Below, in pieces: positions 269-22,599 of a stretch of 22,599 bases of DNA. How positions within the stretch are numbered: the first letter of the stretch is position 1; every line of letters begins with the position of its first letter. A program made the position numbers and the translations under genes. The stretch spans positions 1 through 22,599 of the IMG/VR virus record IMGVR_UViG_3300015603_000070. One strand, written 5' to 3'. The notes under the pieces were generated by a model. It was not told where the DNA came from. It made no database searches and was given only the letters and a program-made list of their open reading frames with translations. This DNA comes from a virus.

Positions 269-1411
269 TTAAGAATTAAGTTTAGTAATTTCGGCATTCA
301 TTACATCCCGTGTCTTCGGGCCGAAGTTCGTGCCTTGACCATCCGGATCCGGTATACCGTGATCCGTCTGGAAAAGACCGAGCGCGACTCGAGTAACCGG
401 ACCGAATGCACCGAAGGTTCCGGGTTTCATATACGGTTTCCCGGAGACTGGAGAGATGAGCATCTGAAGTGCTGTTTGCATGAGCTTTACTTCAGGACCG
501 ATCGGCATACCGAATCTAAGTTGTTTCGAGAATACGTGATTCAATCGAACAGGAGTGTTTATTGGCATAATCAAAGACCGTATCACTCCGCGCATAGCCC
601 AGGTAAGGTGATAATCACCACTAAGATGCTTTCCGAACGGATCATACGTGTCGAAAATGTCTCTCTGACCTGATTCCTCGATGAACGAAAGCTGAGTTGC
701 ATGATTTGCGCCGTCTCCGCATCCAAGAATCACCTTATCTGTATTCCACGGCCAGCAAACTGCGGTCGCTATTTGGATTGGAGCTATTTTAAGTGCCTCC
801 CGGAACTGATCATCGGTAAGAGGACGTGCCTGGAACGCGAGCCATTCATAATCAACGGGAAAAAGTGTCGCGAAGAGTTTACCTTTTGCAATTACATTTG
901 CTGGGATCTCGGACATATACGTCTCCCAATAATTTGCCGGATCTGCTTTCATCGCATCGATTGGCATCGACCAATCTTTCTCCGAAACGAGCCCGTTATT
1001 ATGAATCGATTGCCATATAGATTCAAGGGAGTTACCTTGCTTCGAAGTATTCGACATCTTCGCCGTGAACCGATCAGAGAAGTTTACATTTCCATTTTCA
1101 TCGAAGTATCCATTTGACCTGAGCCACTGAATAGCATCGTTCGGAAACTTCTCATTCTTAATCATAAAGTTTAAGAATGTCTCGAGGTTATTGTTCGCGC
1201 TGAACGAGACGCAGGAAACAGTATCCTTGTAATACGAGACTCCATTTTTGTCGGTCCAAATGAGTGCTTGCCACTCACCTCTTGGTTCGTATGCGCGCCA
1301 GTCGGCTGAAGGATTCACTACTACCGCCTGAGCCCCTGTCTCAACTCCCACGACCCACGCTATCGGCGTAGGATCTTTAACGATGAGCCCTGAGTTTTGA
1401 TTCTGATCCAT
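269..1411 (-). CDS. Papain-like cysteine peptidase fused to a peptidoglycan-binding domain (endolysin-like)
   Basis: 380 residues in two parts. Residues about 15-290 resemble a papain-fold peptidase: Cys67 lies in DTVSCVSFS, where papain enzymes have GxCWAFS; His237 lies in GANHATQLSF; and an Asp in DTYDPFG (254-260) sits where the Asn/Asp of the triad is expected. Residues about 300-375 look like a PG_binding_1 domain (EVKLMQTALQ, FGPVTRVALGLFQ, FGPKTRDVMN), a known peptidoglycan-anchoring fold. The inferred role is cleavage of peptide cross-links in the cell wall, at lysis or entry. It lies directly upstream of the holin-like gene. No signal peptide is visible. The catalytic assignment is from motif similarity only; no classic lysozyme or amidase motif is present. 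The start is preceded by A-rich AAATAAATAAAAACAT with no Shine-Dalgarno. Confidence 0.7.
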   Translation of the reverse strand: MDQNQNSGLIVKDPTPIAWVVGVETGAQAVVVNPSADWRAYEPRGEWQALIWTDKNGVSYYKDTVSCVSFSANNNLETFLNFMIKNEKFPNDAIQWLRSNGYFDENGNVNFSDRFTAKMSNTSKQGNSLESIWQSIHNNGLVSEKDWSMPIDAMKADPANYWETYMSEIPANVIAKGKLFATLFPVDYEWLAFQARPLTDDQFREALKIAPIQIATAVCWPWNTDKVILGCGDGANHATQLSFIEESGQRDIFDTYDPFGKHLSGDYHLTWAMRGVIRSLIMPINTPVRLNHVFSKQLRFGMPIGPEVKLMQTALQMLISPVSGKPYMKPGTFGAFGPVTRVALGLFQTDHGIPDPDGQGTNFGPKTRDVMNAEITKLNS

Positions 1412-1421
1412 ATGTTTTTAT

Positions 1422-4400
1422 TTATTTAGTAAGGCTATCTCTAATAGGCTTTGTAATAATACCTGTTGGTACACCACCAAGTTTACCAGCAGCATCTATG
1501 AATCTGGTAAGCCCTGCACCAACATCTTCTGGCGCGACGTGTTTCTTCTGAAACTTTCCTATTCCTGCCAGCACATCATTCATAAATGCCTCAACAGGAG
1601 ATGCTTGGTAAGAGAATTTATTTCCACTTACCCATCCAAATATCTGTTGAACAATACCGCCAACGATAAGTGGTGTCGTGAATGGGCCGGTAAGAAGCTG
1701 TCCAGCAAGAGAGGGTCTATATTTAGGATCTATGAACATATCTGCTACAAGATTATAAATCATTGGAACCACAATAAGAACCCAAAACAACATCTTTGAT
1801 GCCTCTGTCGCCGACATCCTACCAGAGCGATAGTTACGGATGACGCTAGTTATTATTCGTAAATATTTTGATGGTTGATTAGCGAACATGGTAAATAATT
1901 TCATGAGTGATCCTCCACGCTGCAACGGTGACAGCGTGTGCAGTTGTGAGGATTCCTGCACTCTATTGGTGAGTTCTTCTGCATACTGAATAGCATCATG
2001 AACAGCTCTTTCATCCATCGGTTTATCGAACTCAAATGTATGCCCAGTGATTCTACGATACTCAGACAAGAAAGCTGCTGTTGATCCGGTCATTACGGTT
2101 ATTGCATCAGAGGCACGGATTCCCAAGAACATAAGGTCATCTACCTTCGAACTCTTAAGAATGTTTTTTGTCTTTGATTGCTGTAACTCAAATTTCATAT
2201 CACGTTCGAATCCTTGAGCAAATCGCTCTTTTAGTGAAGGAGAATGTTCGAATATAAAGTTACCCCATTTCATAGGATTCGAACCGAAAGTAGCGATCCC
2301 TACAAAGAAATCCTTAACAGGCAATTCTATCCCGTAGTTCGTTATGCCAGTCAACTGTTTTATCGCGACAGTAGGGTTTATGCCAAGCATTGCTTTGGTG
2401 GTATTCGCACGAAGAATATCAACACCATTCACAATCTTCTCGCGTGCAACCCCAGCACGCGCAATATCGTTTATTGCCGAATCGACAGCATCGAGAAAAT
2501 GCTGTCCATAAAGTCCTCGAATTGTCTTTCGAATTTTCTTATCACTAAAGATACTTCGTATCTCATATATTGATTTGTGGAACGCTTTGTAGTGCTCCAT
2601 TTTTGCGATATGTCGGTTCATGGCAAGGAAGAAATCTGTCGGTTTAAGTTCGAGTTTGCTATTTACTCGTTGCTTAAGAGAGCCATTTTTAACGGAAGCA
2701 TATTTTGCTCCCTCTTGAGCAAGAAGCACGTTTTCAGGAATAGTTAGTTGAACATCACGCACAATCGGCGTGTAGTTTGCGTCGAACGGCATATCATATC
2801 CAAAGTCAAAGACAAAAGCCTCATTTACTCCTGGATAATAATCGCGATAGAGTTGCAAACCATTGTCTGTAGCAACCTGTTTATCTTCTGCCGTTAATAG
2901 ATTTTCAACAGCTTTCATTATTTCAGGAGTCCATGCCATTCCGCCAGGATTAGTGAATGTCTCCATTAACTCTGGTACCTGTATTTTTGCATAGTAGTCG
3001 ATGGCTTCACTACGAGTGAATTCAATTCTTACTGTATCTCCATTAGCATTTTTGAACTCCCCAAGATCATGTACCTTCTTAAGTTCAGCAATCAATTTAA
3101 GTTGGTCTTTCTCTTTTGTAATCCCATAAACATCTTCAATTATTTTAGGTATACGTTTTGCCCACTCCATTGTGCCGGTGAATTCCGCCCCTACTCCATC
3201 TGATATTCGTTTCATAACATACTGATACAAGAAACTTCGATGGTGTTTTGTCGATAAATCCTTTGATGACATCACGTCAAGAAGTTCCCCAAGGTCACTG
3301 TTGTCAGTAGTCAAGAAATCTTGGGCGATCTTTAATGATGAGCGTATTTTTTCACGACGATAAGTCTCATTACCTTTGACGAAATCTTGCCCAATCATAT
3401 CAGCGTGTATTTTCTCTTTGGCGCGATCGATTTCAGTATTGAGATTGAACCGCTGTAATTCCTTAAGCATTTTCCCATTTTCCTTAAGACTTTGAATATC
3501 AGATAAAACTGAAGCAAGCTCCTCTACGGATTGCTCCTTCAGTCCAGCTGATTTTAGAACTCCAATTTCATGTAGCATTTCTATTGATAAAGTAGGATCA
3601 TCCGGATGAGCCGTTACCCAATCTGAAACCTTATTCGAGATCTGCATCTGAGCCTCAGCATAACTCATCTTTTGAACAGCTCGCATCTCGTTCAGAGTCT
3701 TCTGTTGCTCATACGCAAATTTTACATTTGGCAGTCCATCACGTTTACCGATTATAGTTCCCTTCAATTCTTCAGTAATTTTTTGTACTAGCACTTGTCT
3801 TTCAACTGCCTTCGAAGCTACACGCATTTGATCTACAATATCGAGAAAATTCTTCATTGTAGAAAGTTTATTTATTCGTCTCAGGAAATCTGCACGGTTC
3901 TTTTTCGGAAGGAGTTGCGCGTAATCGATTGCAGCTGATTTCATTTCAGCTATGGTTGCTTCTCGAGCACGTATTTTCTCAATGGTAGTCTGGAAACGAC
4001 CGGTGAGTTCAGTCTTCGTTTGTTCGACCCCGACTTTCTTCCCTTCAGTAAATCCGATACGAGATCCTTTCGACAGCGCTTTCGCTTTTTCTCGGACCAG
4101 AGCTCTCTCGGTTGTAGTGATCTTCTTCTGTTCAGGAATACCCATCGCGCGACGCTCAAACTGGTTTGGGTTTTTTACTGAAGGCTTATTCCCAAGCATT
4201 TGTTTCTCAAGTTCAGCACGATGATCTTTCACATACTGGTTCGCTGTGTCCTCTATTTTCTGAATCATCACCTCTTTCTTTTGTAATGCCTTAATCAATT
4301 CTCCATCGTTGCCATCGCGTTTTGCCTGATTAATTTCTCTTGTTATAAGAGTAACCTGTTCAGCATCAGCAGGGCTGAGCGGAGTATTCTCATGTCCCAT

Positions 4401-6011
4401 TTCATGCAGAACAACATCATGTGCGTACCTTGCTCCAAGTTGTGGAAATGTCTCTCCGCCTTTCATTTTGTATACCGTGGTATGCACACTATTTAGACTA
4501 TTTGGATGTGCTGTAATTGTCTCACCACTTGCGAGCATCTGGAGATCTTCTTTAAGGGTAGGCAAGAATATCTCTATCTTTCCAGTTTGAGGATTGAACT
4601 GAGCCGGTCGTCCATCTGAATGCTTGAACTCGTTGACCTGAATATTCTCAGGAAGACCGAAGTTATCAATCGTTCCGTTTCCGAGTTCCTTATTAATACT
4701 CTGTATCAGGTTACGTCCAAAAGCATTTGCCTCAAACGGTGTAAAATTTTGAACACGATCAAGAAGGCTCGGTGTGATCGGAGACGATAGCACCTCTTTT
4801 ACTACTGGAGGTGTCACAACTTGTGATTCAGATACCGTTTGAACCGGTTTATTTGCCTCCGTGGGTAGAGTTGTCGGGGAAATAGGTGCAGTAGTCGTGT
4901 CTCCTGAAAGGAGTCTCGAAGCGCGCCCTTCAGCTCCTATTCCCGGTTTCGATGGAGCAGAGAATGTCTCACTCATCGGTTTCAAACCGATTGCCGTTTT
5001 TAATTTCGCAAACCACGGTTTATCCGCGATCGTTGTATACACGGTAGACGGAATATCAATTGTGATTCCATTGCGAACAGCGTCACCGTATTGTTTTGTT
5101 GTGAGTCCTAGTTGCTTTATAAGATCTAGCTCTTCAGCAGAAATCTTATCTCCAGTTTGGAAAATAGATTTCACTTTTGTTGGATCAATAAACATACTTT
5201 GACCCGGACCCTCAGTAACTGTCTTATTTGTGACGAGTCTTTCCGCGATTGCTTTTGACTGCTCCGCAATCCGTACCGGGTCTATTTTCCCTTTTTCTCC
5301 ACCTGCCATAAATAGAGTCGCTAATCGATTGAAATCTTCACCTGCGTTCGGGTGCTCCATCGCAAATTTCTGAAAGGCTTTTATATCGGTGATTCCACTC
5401 TTGTCAGCAATCACTTGCCCTGCGTTATCCATAAGTGGCTGACCACCAGTAGCTTCGATTGCGGCTCCGATAGCAGAAGATACTGGTGCAAAAATTGCGA
5501 TCGCGGCATCACCCGCAACACGTCCACCCGTTTTTATTGCTCCCTTGAAGAATGCTTGCGCCTGTTCATCGATAGTACCTCCTGATTGCATATCCTTCGC
5601 TCCAGCCGCAACATCTTCCATGATCTTGTTCGGAGTACCTTTATACGTCTCCCACATTCCTTTCAATGTGTTCACTGGAATATCAATAATACGACGACCG
5701 ATTTCTGAAAAAGTATTCTTTAAGAGATCTTTGTTCGGATCTGCCGGAACAAAAGTTGCGGGAGCAACAGCAACCGGTGGAACGACCTGACCCGCAGGAG
5801 TTCCGTACTTCGCAAGAGCAGCACTTCTCGGGTCCGTCGCCGGAGTTGTAGTGGGAGAAGGAGCAACCGGTACCGTGGTCGAATACTTTGCAACTGCGGC
5901 CGCGCGTACCGAATTAAGTCCTCCAGAAGCATCAGGAGTACTTTGAGAAGGAAGAGTTGTCACTCCACCGTATTTTGCTGTTGCCGCATCTCGGAGAGGG
6001 TTCGTGCTCAT
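1422..6011 (-). CDS. Giant internal virion/ejection-type protein with HEMGH zinc-peptidase motif
   Basis: At 1529 residues this is the largest gene in the window. The N-terminus is low-complexity and Pro/Thr/Ala-rich, with three copies of RxAAxAKY(G/S) at residues 7-15, 36-44 and 62-70. Hydrophobic/helical stretches follow around 90-240. At residues 536-540 lies HEMGH in VVLHEMGHEN, the HExxH zinc-binding motif of metallopeptidases. Residues about 560-950 are highly charged, helical and probably coiled-coil. Near the C-terminus are hydrophobic segments at about 1408-1426 and 1438-1458. The overall form (multidomain, disordered N-terminus, peptidase-like centre, amphipathic/membrane C-terminus) matches the large polyvalent or internal virion proteins of podoviruses, which are ejected with the DNA. 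That role is inferred. No transglycosylase or RNA polymerase motif is recognised. It starts 4 bp after the stop of the upstream gene. Confidence 0.6.
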   Translation of the reverse strand: MSTNPLRDAATAKYGGVTTLPSQSTPDASGGLNSVRAAAVAKYSTTVPVAPSPTTTPATDPRSAALAKYGTPAGQVVPPVAVAPATFVPADPNKDLLKNTFSEIGRRIIDIPVNTLKGMWETYKGTPNKIMEDVAAGAKDMQSGGTIDEQAQAFFKGAIKTGGRVAGDAAIAIFAPVSSAIGAAIEATGGQPLMDNAGQVIADKSGITDIKAFQKFAMEHPNAGEDFNRLATLFMAGGEKGKIDPVRIAEQSKAIAERLVTNKTVTEGPGQSMFIDPTKVKSIFQTGDKISAEELDLIKQLGLTTKQYGDAVRNGITIDIPSTVYTTIADKPWFAKLKTAIGLKPMSETFSAPSKPGIGAEGRASRLLSGDTTTAPISPTTLPTEANKPVQTVSESQVVTPPVVKEVLSSPITPSLLDRVQNFTPFEANAFGRNLIQSINKELGNGTIDNFGLPENIQVNEFKHSDGRPAQFNPQTGKIEIFLPTLKEDLQMLASGETITAHPNSLNSVHTTVYKMKGGETFPQLGARYAHDVVLHEMGHENTPLSPADAEQVTLITREINQAKRDGNDGELIKALQKKEVMIQKIEDTANQYVKDHRAELEKQMLGNKPSVKNPNQFERRAMGIPEQKKITTTERALVREKAKALSKGSRIGFTEGKKVGVEQTKTELTGRFQTTIEKIRAREATIAEMKSAAIDYAQLLPKKNRADFLRRINKLSTMKNFLDIVDQMRVASKAVERQVLVQKITEELKGTIIGKRDGLPNVKFAYEQQKTLNEMRAVQKMSYAEAQMQISNKVSDWVTAHPDDPTLSIEMLHEIGVLKSAGLKEQSVEELASVLSDIQSLKENGKMLKELQRFNLNTEIDRAKEKIHADMIGQDFVKGNETYRREKIRSSLKIAQDFLTTDNSDLGELLDVMSSKDLSTKHHRSFLYQYVMKRISDGVGAEFTGTMEWAKRIPKIIEDVYGITKEKDQLKLIAELKKVHDLGEFKNANGDTVRIEFTRSEAIDYYAKIQVPELMETFTNPGGMAWTPEIMKAVENLLTAEDKQVATDNGLQLYRDYYPGVNEAFVFDFGYDMPFDANYTPIVRDVQLTIPENVLLAQEGAKYASVKNGSLKQRVNSKLELKPTDFFLAMNRHIAKMEHYKAFHKSIYEIRSIFSDKKIRKTIRGLYGQHFLDAVDSAINDIARAGVAREKIVNGVDILRANTTKAMLGINPTVAIKQLTGITNYGIELPVKDFFVGIATFGSNPMKWGNFIFEHSPSLKERFAQGFERDMKFELQQSKTKNILKSSKVDDLMFLGIRASDAITVMTGSTAAFLSEYRRITGHTFEFDKPMDERAVHDAIQYAEELTNRVQESSQLHTLSPLQRGGSLMKLFTMFANQPSKYLRIITSVIRNYRSGRMSATEASKMLFWVLIVVPMIYNLVADMFIDPKYRPSLAGQLLTGPFTTPLIVGGIVQQIFGWVSGNKFSYQASPVEAFMNDVLAGIGKFQKKHVAPEDVGAGLTRFIDAAGKLGGVPTGIITKPIRDSLTK

Positions 6012-6015
6012 AGTA

Positions 6016-7440
6016 TTATTTATAATTTCGAGCTGCCGGCCTATTATCCCACCAAGAATTTGCTTTATCCCACCAACTTGGACCTGCTACTGGAGCATCA
6101 GCTACGATCTGAGGGGCCGAAACACCAGTTGTATCGTTTTTCACCAACTCCGAATGGAATCCAGCTTTAATTGTCCCATCTGGATTAAAGTACTGCCCAT
6201 ACAGCATATCCTGTGGAGATGTCTGCCCCGCCGTTTGCTGACCGTATACTGACTGAATCCAACTCGTTGAAAGTGTATTTCCGAACGCATTTATTGCTTC
6301 AGCAAATGGCATTCCATTCGCCTTAAGAGTAAGGAGTTGAGATTTGTCAGCAGCAGGACCATCTTTATCGGTAGTCTGGTCAGTTTTTGCCTGAGCTTCT
6401 GACGCAAGGTACGGCAACATCTTCCTGAGAGCTGTCTCTTTCGTGTCGAGGAATGTGACTCCGGCCTTCTGGAACGCAACCGGATGCGTAGTCATGAGAT
6501 CAGTGACGGCAGTTTTGCTATCCTCAATTGTCTTCGCCTGATCAGTGAGAGCTTTTATACGATCATCAACGAGACTCTTCTCATCGGCAGTCAAGGTGAC
6601 AAGGTTTTTAGTATGAAGGTCGAGAAGAGTAGTGAGTGCGTCGTTTTGAGTTTTGTTATCTGTATTGATTGCTGAAATCGTTGCATCAGCATACGTCTTC
6701 GCAAGATCGATGTTGCCCTGAAGAACCTGTGCGGTTGCCTGAAGAGCACCGATAGTCGCGAGTCCTTGCTTCTGAAGTGAAGCCGATCGCCCAAGAATAA
6801 GTTGCTCGCGAATCGGTCGATCCTGTTCATAGATAAGACCCATGTTCAATGCTTCTTGAGCACTTACAATCTGAGTCTTAATTGCGGTGAGAGAAGCAAT
6901 AGTCTCATCAACTCCAAACTTTGTATTAACCGCCTTGAGTGCATCTTGAGCTGCAGTAGATCCAAGATTCGCTGAAATACCTTTCGCTGCGGCATCGGAA
7001 GCAGCTTGTTCATTCTTAATCTTCTCATCAATCGCGGCCTGGCGAGTCGCTTGAAGAGTATCGATTGCCTTTCCTGTTGCATCAAGAGTAGTACCCGCAA
7101 CCTTCGTAGTCATATCAGAAAGCGATGGAGCGAGCGTCGTCTTCGATTCGGCAAGAGTTGCAGCATCCGGAAGATTCCCGGCTCGAGTGAGATCCGAGGT
7201 AGAGATAGGACCTGAGCTTATTGAAGGAGGAATCGGAGAAGAGTAATTGGCAGGATTCGTCTGTTGTCCCGGTAGAGGATTTGCCCCCGGTGCAGCGACA
7301 GTTACTGGAACAGGAGGTGTAACAGCGGTATCAAGAATACCTCCAAGACTTTTTGCTGTAGCTGCAAATGTTGAAGGATCTCCATATACAGTCTGGATTG
7401 ATCCATCGGGCATTTTTATCTTTGCGTTTTGTGTTGCCAT
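6016..7440 (-). CDS. Ala/Thr-rich helical protein, probable internal virion protein
   Basis: 474 residues, not recognised by family. Residues about 1-110 are Pro/Thr/Ser-rich and probably disordered. Residues about 110-350 are rich in Ala, Lys, Asp and Gln and look almost wholly alpha-helical, consistent with coiled-coil (for example the stretch from DATGKAIDTLQATRQAAIDEK through the Asp/Lys-rich helices near 270-310). The C-terminus contains a Trp-rich stretch (GPSWWDKANSWWDNRPAAR) that could insert in membranes. It lies between a tail-type protein and the giant HEMGH protein, the usual place of podovirus internal/ejection proteins, and is probably a partner of the giant protein. That role is inferred from position and composition. 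It has no Shine-Dalgarno; TATATATAAACACAT precedes the start. Confidence 0.5.
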   Translation of the reverse strand: MATQNAKIKMPDGSIQTVYGDPSTFAATAKSLGGILDTAVTPPVPVTVAAPGANPLPGQQTNPANYSSPIPPSISSGPISTSDLTRAGNLPDAATLAESKTTLAPSLSDMTTKVAGTTLDATGKAIDTLQATRQAAIDEKIKNEQAASDAAAKGISANLGSTAAQDALKAVNTKFGVDETIASLTAIKTQIVSAQEALNMGLIYEQDRPIREQLILGRSASLQKQGLATIGALQATAQVLQGNIDLAKTYADATISAINTDNKTQNDALTTLLDLHTKNLVTLTADEKSLVDDRIKALTDQAKTIEDSKTAVTDLMTTHPVAFQKAGVTFLDTKETALRKMLPYLASEAQAKTDQTTDKDGPAADKSQLLTLKANGMPFAEAINAFGNTLSTSWIQSVYGQQTAGQTSPQDMLYGQYFNPDGTIKAGFHSELVKNDTTGVSAPQIVADAPVAGPSWWDKANSWWDNRPAARNYK

Positions 7441-10995: not shown

Positions 10996-13155
10996 TTAAG
11001 CAACGATAGTACTATTATCAGACGAAGGATTGAAGAATATCACTGTCGCTGAGACAGCAAAACCAATCACTCGTATCACCCCATCTGCTCCAGTTGGAAT
11101 TGTTGCTTGAATAGCACCTGCTGTTTCTCCAACATAGAGCGTTGCACCTATTGTCCACGTCCAAGAGTCATCTCGGACGAATGAGCCAGGAAGAGCTACC
11201 AACATCGCCTGTGTATCATTCTTTGCTTCAAGAGCGATACCAATTAAACCACCTGAGGTTGCGATTGCATCAGCGTCAGCAATCAACCACTTACTAGAAC
11301 TGCCCATATAGACGACATTCATCAGAGCGACTGTTGCACCTGACTGAAATGCGTTTGTAGCAAATCCTACTGCTGTATGGTCAGACGCTGGAGAATCTAG
11401 ATCGAAATAAGACGATATAACTACAGGACTGGAGATTGCTTGAGGACCCGTATATCCAGTAGCACCGATAGGTCCCGTATAGCCGGTAGCACCAATAGGA
11501 CCGGTAAAACCAGTTGCTCCAGTTGGTCCAATAGGTCCCGTGTATCCAGTGAAGTTCCCAGGACCGGTGTATCCGGTAGCTCCGGTTGCCCCAATAACAC
11601 CTTGAGGTCCCGTGTATCCGGTAGGTCCAGTTGCTCCAGTTGGTCCAATAGGTCCGGTATAGCCAGTGAAGTTTCCAGGACCAGTGTAGCCCGTCGGTCC
11701 AATAGGTCCCGTGTATCCGGTAAAGTTTCCAGGACCCGTGTAGCCCGTGTACCCAGTATAGCCAGTAGGACCAGTTGCACCATTAGCAGCAGCAGATCCT
11801 TGAGGTCCCGTGTAGCCAGTTGCTCCGGTCGGGCCAATAGGTCCTGTGTATCCAGTGAAGTTCCCAGGACCGGTGTAGCCGGTGTACCCAGTGAAGTTCC
11901 CAGGACCGGTATAACCAGTTGCTCCGGTCGGTCCAATAGGTCCCGTGTAGCCAGTAAAGTTTCCAGGTCCCGTGTATCCGGTTGCTCCGGTATAGCCAGT
12001 GTACCCAGTAAAGTTCCCAGGACCCGTATAGCCAGTTGCTCCGGTCGGGCCTATAGGTCCCGTGTAGCCAGTGAAGTTCCCAGGACCGGTGTATCCGGTT
12101 GCTCCAGTTGCTCCGATAACACCTTGGGGTCCTGTATAGCCGGTCGCCCCAATAACACCTTGAGGACCAGTATATCCGGTAGGGCCGATAGGTCCCGTGT
12201 ATCCAGTAAAGTTTCCAGGACCAGTGTAACCGGTAGGGCCAGTCGGGCCAGTATAGCCAGTGAAGTTCCCAGGTCCCGTGTAGCCGGTAGGACCGATAGG
12301 TCCCGTGTCTCCTGTTATGCCGATAGGACCGGTAAAACCAGTTGCTCCAGTAGGACCGATAGGTCCAGTGTATCCAGTAAAGTTACCAGGTCCTGTGTAG
12401 CCAGTTGCTCCAGTAGGACCTATTGGCCCTGTGTACCCAGTAAAGTTTCCAGGTCCGGTATATCCGGTTGCTCCAGTCGGTCCAATAGGTCCCGTGTAGC
12501 CAGTGAAGTTTCCAGGACCGGTATAACCAGTAGCTCCGGTCGGGCCGATAGGACCCGTATATCCGGTTGCACCAATAGGACCGGTAAAACCAGTTGCTCC
12601 AGTAGGACCGATAGGACCCGTGTAGCCAGTAAAGTTTCCAGGACCCGTGTAGCCGGTTGCTCCGGTTGGGCCTATAGGTCCCGTGTACCCGGTAGGACCA
12701 ATAGGTCCTGTATAACCAGTAGGGCCAATAGGACCTGTATATCCGGTTGTTCCGGTCGGTCCAATAGGACCTGTGTAACCAGTAAAGTTTCCAGGTCCTG
12801 TGTATCCAGTTGCTCCAGTAGGACCGGTGTAACCAGTAGGACCAAGAGGTCCTGTATAACCGGTTGCTCCAGTGGATCCGGTATAGCCGGTTGCTCCAGT
12901 AAAGCCGGTATAACCGGTAGGGCCAGCTGCTATGATATTCCAATACGTCGCCTGATTCGTCCCTGATCCCGGCTTATCATTTGCGGTTGCTGAAGTGTGC
13001 TCAAGTATACAAACGTACGATGATCCGGTTGCGGCATTATACACACCATCTCCAGGCACATAGAGTGTTGCGTTTGCCCAGTTACCTTGCCAATACTTTA
13101 TACCGGCGAGGGCAAGGGAACCGTCTGTTGCTGATGTCCAATTTGATCTTCCCAT
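10996..13155 (-). CDS. Collagen-like tail fibre with carbohydrate-binding-like N-domain
   Basis: 719 residues in three parts. Residues 1-77 contain a pattern of aromatic and Gly residues ([32 protein letters not shown]) like small carbohydrate-binding or fibre-attachment modules. Residues 78-572 are about 165 Gly-X-Y triplets dominated by GYT, GPT, GAT and GPI, a collagen-like triple helix. The regular pattern is broken 15 times by an NFT triplet (GPGNFTGYT) and once by GSAAANGAT. The last 147 residues form a strand-rich head ([49 protein letters not shown]) like C-terminal domains of other phage collagen-like fibres. A trimeric receptor-binding or side fibre is the probable role. It follows the head-tail adaptor gene by 11 bp. 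Confidence 0.75.
11440..12924. repeat. DNA repeat array coding Gly-X-Y triplets with NFT interruptions
   Basis: An array of degenerate 9-bp units (Gly-X-Tyr/Thr codons) in higher-order blocks, typically 54-63 bp, each ending in the GPGNFT module. The module is coded by AAGTT(T/C/A)CCAGG-type sequence (plus-strand reading) near 11541, 11669, 11723, 11856, 11894, 11958, 12012, 12075, 12212, 12263, 12383, 12443, 12507, 12632 and 12787. Synonymous differences between blocks show they are diverged, but the array remains a likely site of length variation by recombination or slippage, and an assembly-collapse risk. Confidence 0.8.
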
Positions 13156-20914: not shown

Positions 20915-21751
20915 TTAATTTTCGAGTAGCTCCTGATTCTCAGGATCATCAAGAAGACCTCCTGGCCTCACCTTCCCGGCAGCGATCTGATTCAATACCT
21001 CATTCAAATCAATCGTACGAGTCGTCGTCTCCTGCTTATCCTTCATCTTCGTGCGGTTCACCGCGACGAACTTCATCGTAATCGCACCATAATTCCCGAG
21101 TAACCCATGATGCACGAGGAACTCTTCGTATATATCAGCACAGATCTCGTACGCCTCAGCGAACTCAGGGTGCTTTCGCCATGACATGAGTTTACTTTTG
21201 CTCACTCCGATGCGGCGCGCAAACTCCGAGAACTCCGGTGGAGCATTCGGTACACGCTTATTCTTCGTCTCGATGAATCCGCTCTTATACACATACTCCT
21301 CCGAGATCGTTCGATATTTTTCTCGGTCAAAAAACTGAAGCATCTCCTGGCAATAGCCCGGGTGATATTCTCCTTTCTTCACCACTTCAGGTACGAATGC
21401 TTTTTTGGGAATCGCCACCATATCAGGTTCTGGATGCAGTATGTCAAAGGTTCTAGTTGCAAGATTATCGATGGGGGGTGCTAGTGGGACTTCTGCTTGT
21501 TTTATTTGAACATGTTCCACAGTACTGTCAACTAGGTCAAATGGTATTGGAGTAACACGTTCCATAGGACTGTCAACTAGGTCAAATGGTATTTTGGTTA
21601 CAGATTCGGCTGGGGCCCCCGTATATATTGGCGCACGATCTTCCATTTGGGCCATGCCCCCGGGGTGTGGGGGGTTCGAGATTTGGTCTATGGCTTGACG
21701 TTCAGGCATACGCATAGCATAGCGCACAATGTGCATGCATAGCATGAGCAT
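20915..21751 (-). CDS. terS: Terminase small subunit (DNA-recognition), start uncertain
   Basis: Up to 278 residues. The C-terminal ~150 residues carry a helix-turn-helix-like region (PEFSEFARRIGVSKSKLMSWRKHPEFAEAYEICADIYEEFL) of the kind used by small terminases to recognise packaging sites, followed by a basic stretch and a flexible end. Position directly before the large terminase supports the call. The N-terminal ~100 residues are low-complexity and include a 15-residue tandem repeat (IPFDLVDS twice). The first ATG (21751) lies in a GCAT-rich repetitive stretch and gives an unlikely MLMLCMHIVRYAM start. The ATG at 21709 (MPERQ) or those at 21655 and 21646 (MAQMEDRAP) are alternatives. None has a Shine-Dalgarno. 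Confidence 0.72.
   Translation of the reverse strand: MLMLCMHIVRYAMRMPERQAIDQISNPPHPGGMAQMEDRAPIYTGAPAESVTKIPFDLVDSPMERVTPIPFDLVDSTVEHVQIKQAEVPLAPPIDNLATRTFDILHPEPDMVAIPKKAFVPEVVKKGEYHPGYCQEMLQFFDREKYRTISEEYVYKSGFIETKNKRVPNAPPEFSEFARRIGVSKSKLMSWRKHPEFAEAYEICADIYEEFLVHHGLLGNYGAITMKFVAVNRTKMKDKQETTTRTIDLNEVLNQIAAGKVRPGGLLDDPENQELLEN
21514..21593. repeat. 45-bp tandem repeat in the small terminase N-terminus
   Basis: Two copies begin at GTTCCA (21514 and 21559). An identical 25-bp core lies at 21524-21548 and 21569-21593, exactly 45 bp (15 codons) apart. On the protein it doubles the IPFDLVDS motif. Nucleotide identity without synonymous change points to a recent duplication. Confidence 0.8.
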
Positions 21752-21884
21752 GTATCTATATGCAAGGGCGAAAGGCCCCTATATGCCCCATTCATGGCGT
21801 CAAGCGCTCATTCATGGCCTCTATTTGCCCGTCTAAGGCCCCTCAAATTGCCGAGCTTTACGATGTATCATGTTGTATTTCATT

Positions 21885-21916
21885 CAAAGGTACTTAAAAC
21901 GATATAGCCGGAAAGG
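21885..21916 (-). promoter_or_regulatory. Possible leftward promoter with a Bacteroidota-type -7 element
   Basis: On the minus strand TACCTTTG (21885-21892) fits the Bacteroidota -7 consensus TAnnTTTG. A TTTC, one base from the -33 TTTG, lies 18 bp upstream (21911-21914). It could drive the packaging operon, whose first start lies about 130-180 bp further on. Short motif, weak upstream element; no sigma70-type promoter is better in this stretch. Confidence 0.25.
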
Positions 21917-21978
21917 GTATGTTGTATTCTATAGGGTGCCATTCCTTTATTTTGTTTCTATGTTGTAATACACTTTTT

Positions 21979-21996
21979 ATGTTTCACGTGCAACAT
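21979..21996. promoter_or_regulatory. parS-like ParB-binding palindrome
   Basis: TGTTTCACGTGCAACA at 21980-21995 matches the bacterial chromosomal parS consensus TGTTTCACGTGAAACA at 15 of 16 positions. With one base each side (ATGTT...AACAT) it is an 18-bp palindrome broken at a single base pair position, and the CACGTG core is intact. ParB family proteins bind parS and recruit segregation machinery. No parA or parB gene is seen in this window. Confidence 0.6.
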
Positions 21997-22076
21997 GGCC
22001 CACAATCGATCAAATACCGCCACGAATCAAAAACAACGGAAACGGCTAAATGGTCTAAAATGTTGTAATTCAAAGC

Positions 22077-22090
22077 GTTTGATATCAAAC
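22077..22090. promoter_or_regulatory. Perfect 14-bp palindrome, operator-like
   Basis: GTTTGATATCAAAC reads the same on both strands. It lies 3 bp upstream of the -35-like TTGAAA of the possible rightward promoter, the usual position of an operator for a dimeric regulator. It is not present in the second copy of the ~67-bp repeat. Confidence 0.45.
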
Positions 22091-22093
22091 CTA

Positions 22094-22123
22094 TTGAAAG
22101 ACAATGATATATAAAGATATTAT
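22094..22123 (+). promoter_or_regulatory. Possible rightward sigma70-type promoter
   Basis: TTGAAA (22094-22099), an 18-bp spacer, then TATTAT (22118-22123): each hexamer is one base from consensus. The region is AT-rich, so chance matches are likely. It would transcribe toward the small ORF at 22320/22353 and the rightward genes presumed beyond the window. The second repeat copy has a weaker counterpart (TTTCAA, 18 bp, TATAGG at 22185-22190). Confidence 0.35.
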
Positions 22124-22352
22124 AAGCATTTGTAATTCAATCCTTTTCACTCATAAAGGCTTTCAAAGACAATGATATATACGCTATAGGTACTAGGCCA
22201 CACAGAAGACATGAATTTTCTACTAACCTAAATCGTGAGAACAACAGACCTGTCATCATATTCGACTCCCCCTGGCATGGACCCATAATAGGAACACCCT
22301 CTTCTTTCGGAAATATTGTATGTTATTCTTAAATCCAAGATTTTATACGAGA

Positions 22353-22478
22353 ATGGAAGAATACAATTTGACATTTAGTTCATCCAAAAAGAAACTTCCA
22401 AAATGGTATATCAAAGACGATACAAATGAGGTCATATATGATTACGCTGACGAGATAAAACGAAAGCTACAGCTGTAG
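22353..22478 (+). CDS. Small rightward ORF (41 aa), hypothetical
   Basis: Reads MEEYNLTFSSSKKKLPKWY... ending DYADEIKRKLQL, stop TAG. The composition is protein-like: a basic middle, then an acidic-aromatic stretch and an amphipathic C-terminal helix. An in-frame ATG at 22320 would add 11 residues (MLFLNPRFYTR). Neither start has a clear Shine-Dalgarno, as elsewhere in the window. It is the only plausible gene on the plus strand and may be the first gene of a rightward, early-type unit. Function unknown. Confidence 0.4.
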   Translation: MEEYNLTFSSSKKKLPKWYIKDDTNEVIYDYADEIKRKLQL

Positions 22479-22599
22479 TCCAGTAGACAAATAATGATAT
22501 ATATTCATAGATGTATGGATATATGTGGGCCAAATCACTATACAGGATAGCCGGTCAAAACATCGTAAGCTAAGTTTGTTAGCAGAAGAGGGTAAGTAG
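22479..22599. other. Window end, no supported gene
   Basis: AT-rich sequence with a partial third repeat trace (AATGATATATA at 22493-22503). The only rightward ORF here is 20 codons (22511-22573) and is not convincing. A gene may begin beyond the window. Confidence 0.5.

Follow-up and report, generated by a model that had tools for sequence, protein, structure and literature searches.

A predicted zinc-peptidase domain in front of a shared chassis in a giant, putatively ejected phage protein

The giant protein encoded in the window, by which we mean the whole 22,599-base stretch analysed here (a linear virus record from IMG/VR that holds no further sequence), combines a predicted zinc-metallopeptidase domain with a C-terminal chassis that is shared with giant proteins of other phages, some of which carry different enzymes in front of it. 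Our reading, to which we assign a probability of roughly 0.55, is that the giant is a polyvalent-type ejection protein, whose zinc-peptidase cargo would refold after ejection and cut a host protein early in infection. In particular, the chassis (about residues 665-1510) would probably be the part that is stored in the phage head and enters the cell by way of the tail, while the cargo slot before it would hold a small zinc peptidase, with H536, H540 and E587 as putative ligands and E537 as the putative general base (Table 1). The preliminary description of this DNA had claimed a zinc-peptidase motif in a giant ejection-type protein, and had regarded a peptidase as unusual in proteins of this kind. 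The domain, as well as the size and position expected of an ejection protein, stood up in our analysis, and the claim of rarity did not. Namely, because the zincin-like peptidase is the commonest domain of polyvalent proteins, being present in approximately 36% of the data set of Iyer 2017 (PMC5512222), a peptidase in the giant of the window is not unusual, and the virion RNA polymerase (vRNAP) of phage N4 is itself described with an HExxH domain (PMC12633501).

Table 1. Coordinates of the giant protein, its parts and its upstream neighbour in the window
Feature	Position	Strand	Basis
Giant protein, 1529 aa, putative ejected internal virion (polyvalent-type) protein	1422..6011	minus	ORF, phrog_9880, late structural neighbourhood
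Residues 4-72, three copies of (L/V)RxAxxxKY-type motif in Pro/Ala/Thr-rich stretch	5796..6002	minus	read from translation
Module M, residues 255-360	4932..5249	minus	profile E 1.2e-38 to 1e-22 in L029-L034
Predicted zincin (mini-gluzincin-like) domain, residues 424-609	4185..4742	minus	alignments, model mean pLDDT 80.2 / pTM 0.76, structure ranks
HEMGH, residues 536-540; two His as putative zinc ligands, Glu as putative general base	4392..4406	minus	H-E-x-x-H unchanged in every aligned relative
E587, candidate third zinc ligand, in ExxAxxY, next-but-one helix, 47 residues past H540	4251..4253	minus	invariant with A590 and Y593; last long helix of model
C-terminal chassis, residues ~664-1529 (profile ~665-1510)	1425..4022	minus	profile matches in 44/51 giants
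Hydrophobic segment, residues 1409-1427, strongest in giant, mean Kyte-Doolittle 2.02, possible membrane helix	1731..1787	minus
474-aa protein directly upstream of giant, likely partner ejection or tail protein	6016..7440	minus	position

Conservation and predicted fold of the HExxH domain

The gene of the giant is a single open frame with an ATG start, and its translation confirms HEMGH at the residues originally given; the coding strand, on which the preliminary description was imprecise, is the minus strand, as for the window genes in general. HEMGH is the sole HExxH in the protein. Given 23 His and 97 Glu, the expected count of such motifs is 0.022. Of 20,000 shuffled versions of the giant, 406 contained any HExxH, which means that chance would put one in approximately 2% of such proteins. 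A chance origin of HEMGH is nevertheless unlikely, because the motif is conserved in the relatives. A search of viral_contigs with the single giant returned none of these. Related contigs were reached via the terminase, with a relative of the giant in two of 19, and alignment-based scans added one further lineage. The full or nearly full relatives come from 3300025018_000390 and 3300008255_001769, which encode nearly identical proteins with 40-42% identity to the window giant, and from 3300031697_000015, with 33%. Conservation is therefore read over three independent lineages only, namely the window and three other contigs, two of them of one lineage. Across this set the motif reads HEMGH, HEKSH or HEVSH, and the domain alignment is invariant at H536, E537, H540, D549, E587, A590, Y593 and E602. 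Judging from the alignment and the model, E587 is the natural candidate for the third zinc ligand.

The DNA pattern (R)YxxD(V/I)xxHExxH occurs in viral_contigs in just the three relative contigs, and a looser pattern added just L083, an unrelated small protein, as a fourth match. L083 was rejected as a relative of the giant, since it is a separate 126-aa HELFH protein with a domain E of 0.0088 over 22 positions at the motif. Scanning genome_contigs with the relatives' alignment gave 158 stretches and no giant relative, i.e. no provirus relative in that collection with those patterns. At the level of known families, no model of Pfam, NCBIfam or PADLOC matched the giant at E <= 1. PF18818 (MPTase-PolyVal) matched none of 12 records at E <= 1, and was found below cut-off in three of 14 control genomes. 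Sequence searches of the PDB, with the single domain and with the relatives' alignment, returned no peptidase, the best rows being apolipoprotein B and TRAP transporter proteins.

Structure prediction was performed for residues 414-651 from three sequences (mean pLDDT 70.5) and for residues 424-609 alone from four rows (Table 1), with confidence being low past residue 609. Both models run from strands to the HExxH helix, a further helix and a long helix with E587. In the numbering of the trimmed model, the strands are 34-37, 47-50 and 55-59, the HExxH helix is 99-119, with H113/E114/H117, and the long helix is 146-183, with E164 corresponding to E587. According to the preliminary description, the idea of a peptidase would fall if the motif lay in an ordinary coiled coil with no third ligand, or if its His and Glu were not conserved; neither result occurred. 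Indeed, because strands and a confident HExxH helix are predicted and the catalytic positions are invariant, we reject a coiled-coil artefact.

In a second-look structural alignment of the trimmed model, the five best rows were IrrE/PprI 3dti, 3dte and 8sln (Z 4.5, 4.5 and 4.4; rmsd 5.2-5.3 over 91-92 residues), selecase 4qhf (4.3) and 2ejq (4.3), followed by an AcMNPV chain (4.1) and abylysin 4jiu (4.0). Judged by title, 14 of the 50 listed rows were metallopeptidases or the plasmid antirestriction protein ArdC. It should be noted that all VIA Z values of the trimmed model are below 5, little above those of unrelated rows, and that the best of them, 4.5 for IrrE, is under the level at which a match stands out. 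Foldseek gave no match at E <= 0.001 for either model (E > 0.1). For the longer model, the top seven rows were all from AcMNPV (Z 5.6 to 4.4), ahead of selecase (4.0) and PprI/IrrE (3.8 and 3.7); with the trimmed one, the AcMNPV cap proteins were found among the rows of Z 3.0-4.1. We set this likeness aside as one of general arrangement, the terms zincin, metallo, peptidase and protease being absent from one baculovirus nucleocapsid paper.

In IrrE, H82, E83, H86 and E113 are described as required for metal binding and activity, with H82, H86 and E113 as ligands. The 3dti alignment ends 176 to 125, and, provided that its last stretch is gapless, E164 (E587) would fall on IrrE E113. For residues 424-609, the best reading of alignment and model is a predicted, mini-gluzincin-like zinc-peptidase domain, for which the structural ranking, with its modest Z values, is support and not proof.

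Gene neighbourhood and modular build

The giant lies on the same strand and in the same block as the capsid protein, the terminase and the portal-sized protein. The block, in which roles of genes with no family match are taken from position, comprises a putative small terminase, the large terminase (617 aa), a portal-sized protein (675 aa), a scaffold-like protein and the major capsid protein (PF25209; phrog_1357, E 1.6e-65). Beyond the capsid gene follow several proteins of the tail or fibres, one of them with collagen repeats, then proteins of 480, 199 and 474 aa, the giant itself, and finally a 380-aa protein that carries a peptidoglycan-binding domain and a hydrophobic protein of 77 aa. 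The 474-aa protein, which has no Pfam family above cut-off, has homologues that immediately precede the gene of the giant in L026 (41% identical) and L028 (44%), and homologues of the 480-aa protein lie further upstream in the same two (42% in both); the gene order around the giant is kept in L026 and L028. This position among head and tail genes, together with its size, fits a putative ejection-type protein.

Matches of the giant in PHROGs are all to families of function unknown and all in its C-terminal half, that to phrog_9880 having E 3.6e-22. Three profiles (M, Z and C) were built from the relatives and run on 51 giant proteins. The zincin profile Z matches solely the window giant and its three relatives. 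The chassis profile C, on the other hand, matches 44 of the 51 giants at domain E < 1e-5 (window giant and relatives counted), in each case in the C-terminal part and ending at most 191 residues from the end; the giants with no match are L024, L029, L030, L032, L033, L034 and L081. Neither module M nor the chassis of the window giant matched a Pfam family. Module M, of about 105 residues (KSIFxxG...IEVPA...DKPYWAK), is common to the giants L029-L034, whose C-termini are mostly different.

What stands before the chassis varies from phage to phage. In particular, L063 (1525 aa) has ART-PolyVal at 463-603 and its chassis from 632, i.e. the same slot as that of the zincin domain of the window giant, with its chassis from about 664. 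At other places in chassis proteins, ART-PolyVal in L045 and SNF2/helicase in L044 were found, like the ART-PolyVal of L063, above Pfam cut-offs, as were PBECR5 nuclease and LPD22 in the giant of Cobetia phage Carin1, while L046, L047, L061 and L071 have no Pfam family above cut-off. The giant of Vibrio phage 1.185.O has LPD22 above the cut-off and acetyltransferase matches below it. The window giant contains only one recognisable enzyme domain; ART, SNF2, PBECR5 and LPD22 are joined in its chassis relatives.

HExxH is present in 21 of the 44 chassis proteins, as compared with 1.14 expected from shuffles, where it should be kept in mind that these proteins are related and hence not 44 independent cases. 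Among the 25 that are not 5'-open on their contig, judged by a flag which also counts the short piece L043, 12 have the motif, with 0.58 expected. Sorted by eye, the 21 fall into the window type (4), (D)xSTxxHExxH (9), GHEL(V/I)HAQL (4) and singles (4). Profile-profile comparison drew no link from the window type to the others: in hhalign, it reached a best probability of 5.5 over 24 windows around HExxH in N4 and other giants, no better than the 4.6 of the best among 43 control windows. Since the other 23 of the 44, including 13 of the 25, have no HExxH, the chassis does not need the motif and works without it.

Known systems and the role of the peptidase

Among known systems, the closest parallel is that of the polyvalent proteins with an MPTase domain, which, as described in PMC5512222, are likewise giant multidomain products of phage late genes with the peptidase in mid-protein, the fold of which is, as predicted for the window domain, a small sheet, an HExxH helix and then a Glu helix. 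What is more, the polyvalent network of that paper carries ART-PolyVal, PBECR5, SNF2 and LPD, the same domains as found on this chassis. The window giant differs in that PF18818 does not match it and in that profile comparison did not connect it with the HExxH stretches of other phages. The kind of arrangement is thus already published, as the polyvalent-protein theme, while the zincin clade is new in terms of sequence, in that it is matched by no tested profile, though it may belong to one of the 12 published MPTase clades. Our literature search returned no paper on an internal virion protein metallopeptidase in ejection, on an ejected HEXXH virion peptidase of a phage, or on Cobetia phage Carin1.

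N4 vRNAP gp50 is an ejected giant in which a domain C1 with HExxH precedes a very large, mostly helical C2 (preprint, PMC12633501), and we confirmed HELVH at 2228 in the N4 record. The window giant resembles it in having an HExxH domain followed by a large C-terminal part, but contains no RNA polymerase family (Pfam, PHROGs and NCBIfam). Kinship was not supported: hhalign of the chassis with C2 gave a probability of 0.4, the chassis profile had its best domain E of 0.077 elsewhere than in C2, and the zincin profile found only residues 627-733, at domain E 0.21 and not at the HExxH of N4. T7 gp16 (whose role is described in PMC12633501) and the podovirus ejection proteins resemble the window giant in size and gene position and, probably, in being ejected along with the DNA; unlike them, the window giant has no muramidase or transglycosylase in Pfam, and no named ejection protein of the libraries searched proved related to it in sequence. 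Closer to hand, the giants of Carin1 (L025) and Vibrio phage 1.185.O (L024) match its C-terminal part in tblastn (E 1e-6 and 2e-10), occupy a similar gene position and both have HExxH, but of the type LSTFxHExxH. Of the two, the chassis profile matched that of Carin1 and not that of the Vibrio phage, for which kinship is indicated by tblastn alone.

How would such a peptidase be used? Iyer 2017 (PMC5512222) suggests three roles for zincins, i.e. processing before packaging, processing after injection, and attack on host proteins. We favour an effector that acts on a host protein after ejection, on the grounds that the chassis is combined with other enzymes as well and that more than half of its proteins have no HExxH at all. 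In other phages, this chassis is found with an ADP-ribosyltransferase, a helicase or a nuclease, and this suggests that the peptidase is an effector and not something that ejection requires. That said, the chassis proteins without HExxH fit an optional processing peptidase as well as they fit an effector. Self-processing, in which the peptidase would cleave the polypeptide it belongs to or other proteins of the virion, either inside the capsid or once ejected, and free the N-terminal part from the chassis, is the most serious competitor, if a tentative one: it has been proposed as a major role for P1 DdrB and other polyvalent proteins (Iyer 2017, PMC5512222), and the zincin domain of the window giant is flanked by a Pro/Ala/Thr-rich stretch (about residues 343-412) on one side and by the chassis on the other, which offers a plausible cut site. 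The same motif-less chassis proteins speak against self-processing, as does the report that N4 vRNAP is packaged uncleaved (PMC5512222).

It is, in our opinion, unlikely that the domain is a peptidoglycan endopeptidase that opens the cell wall for the tail or ejection tube, a task done by a muramidase in other podoviruses. Such a replacement would agree with the finding that none of the 18 window proteins scanned with Pfam has a muramidase or transglycosylase above the cut-off, only the 380-aa protein showing a peptidoglycan-binding domain (PF01471); however, with the window being a fragment, a muramidase may be encoded beyond it. Moreover, Carin1 has a putative lysozyme gene directly before its giant gene, and yet its giant has an HExxH stretch, and to our knowledge, IrrE and selecase, the nearest folds, are not wall enzymes. 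Improbable as well is an inactive, zincin-derived fold kept for structure or for other HExxH chemistry, despite the modest scores against solved zincins, the missing profile match and the occurrence of HExxH in radical-SAM-associated enzymes, mentioned in the N4 structure paper (PMC12633501). Namely, decay would not preserve four catalytic positions that are invariant over lineages 33-40% identical.

Returning to the host-protein effector, the solved folds that rank best, those of IrrE/PprI from Deinococcus and the mini-gluzincins selecase and abylysin, share with the predicted domain the His pair of HExxH and a Glu, in the window giant the candidate ligand E587, and invite speculation about its target. 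IrrE cuts the repressor DdrO. One might imagine an IrrE/ImmA-like regulator peptidase, mounted on an ejection chassis as independent cargo and unrelated to the published MPTase clades, that cuts a particular regulator of transcription or defence in the host within the first minutes of infection, but we consider anything as specific as this to be doubtful. Identity to these solved folds is approximately 11-12% at Z 4-4.5, the spacing from the second His to the Glu is 47 residues in the window giant as opposed to 27 in IrrE, and IrrE, selecase and abylysin are stand-alone or DNA-binding regulators and not virion proteins.

With the window giant, an unrecognised zincin clade would be added to the enzymes apparently delivered by phages together with their DNA. 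A single C-terminal chassis with different enzymes in front makes a clean comparison, and pairs of chassis proteins whose main difference is the cargo, for instance the window giant and L063 with their nearly equal lengths, would allow a direct test of effector versus part of the ejection machine, a question shared by N4 and P1.

Further observations

In many giants, a short motif that differs from phage to phage is repeated two or three times at the N-terminus, often from residue 3. Such repeats were seen in L029, L031, L033, L034, L040, L042, L047, L050, L069 and L070 besides the window giant, with IDFNKIRDNLN/IDFDKIRKNLN, two copies of LDLSMIPD, and IDLTAYNKKYQGG/LNLSAYWNKYEGG as examples; at least two copies of the (L/V)RxAxxxKY-type motif also occur in L040 and L042. 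In a test against shuffles, 12 of 29 N-termini reached p < 0.05, as compared with three of 29 mid-protein controls, while the repeat of the window giant itself is not significant in the pairwise shuffle test (p 0.136). Possibly, the repeated N-terminal motif is a docking or packaging signal. At the other end, most chassis proteins have hydrophobic segments approximately 110-280 residues before the C-terminal end, and that of the window giant would suit membrane anchoring.

L083 has its motif near 1603-1646 on the minus strand, in a stand-alone 126-aa phage HExxH protein with VLVHELFHAVTD, on an unrelated contig. In the 380-aa protein of the window (269-1411, minus), PG_binding_1 (PF01471) is C-terminal and barely above the Pfam cut-off (23.2 bits vs 23), and the spacing of Cys, His and Asp in the N-terminal part gives the impression of papain-like peptidases; the protein is a possible endolysin, adjoining the holin-like 77-aa hydrophobic protein. 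Beyond the terminase genes, 21750-22599 is A+T-rich (GC 0.34-0.38), with no listed ORF of at least 60 aa, and is possibly a regulatory or end region. Finally, the 719-aa protein (10996-13155, minus) consists of long collagen-like G-x-y repeats (Pfam Collagen, E 2.5e-46), visible as tandem repeats in the DNA, and then a C-terminal domain, and is probably a fibre; a related, shorter collagen-like array is carried by L004/L005.
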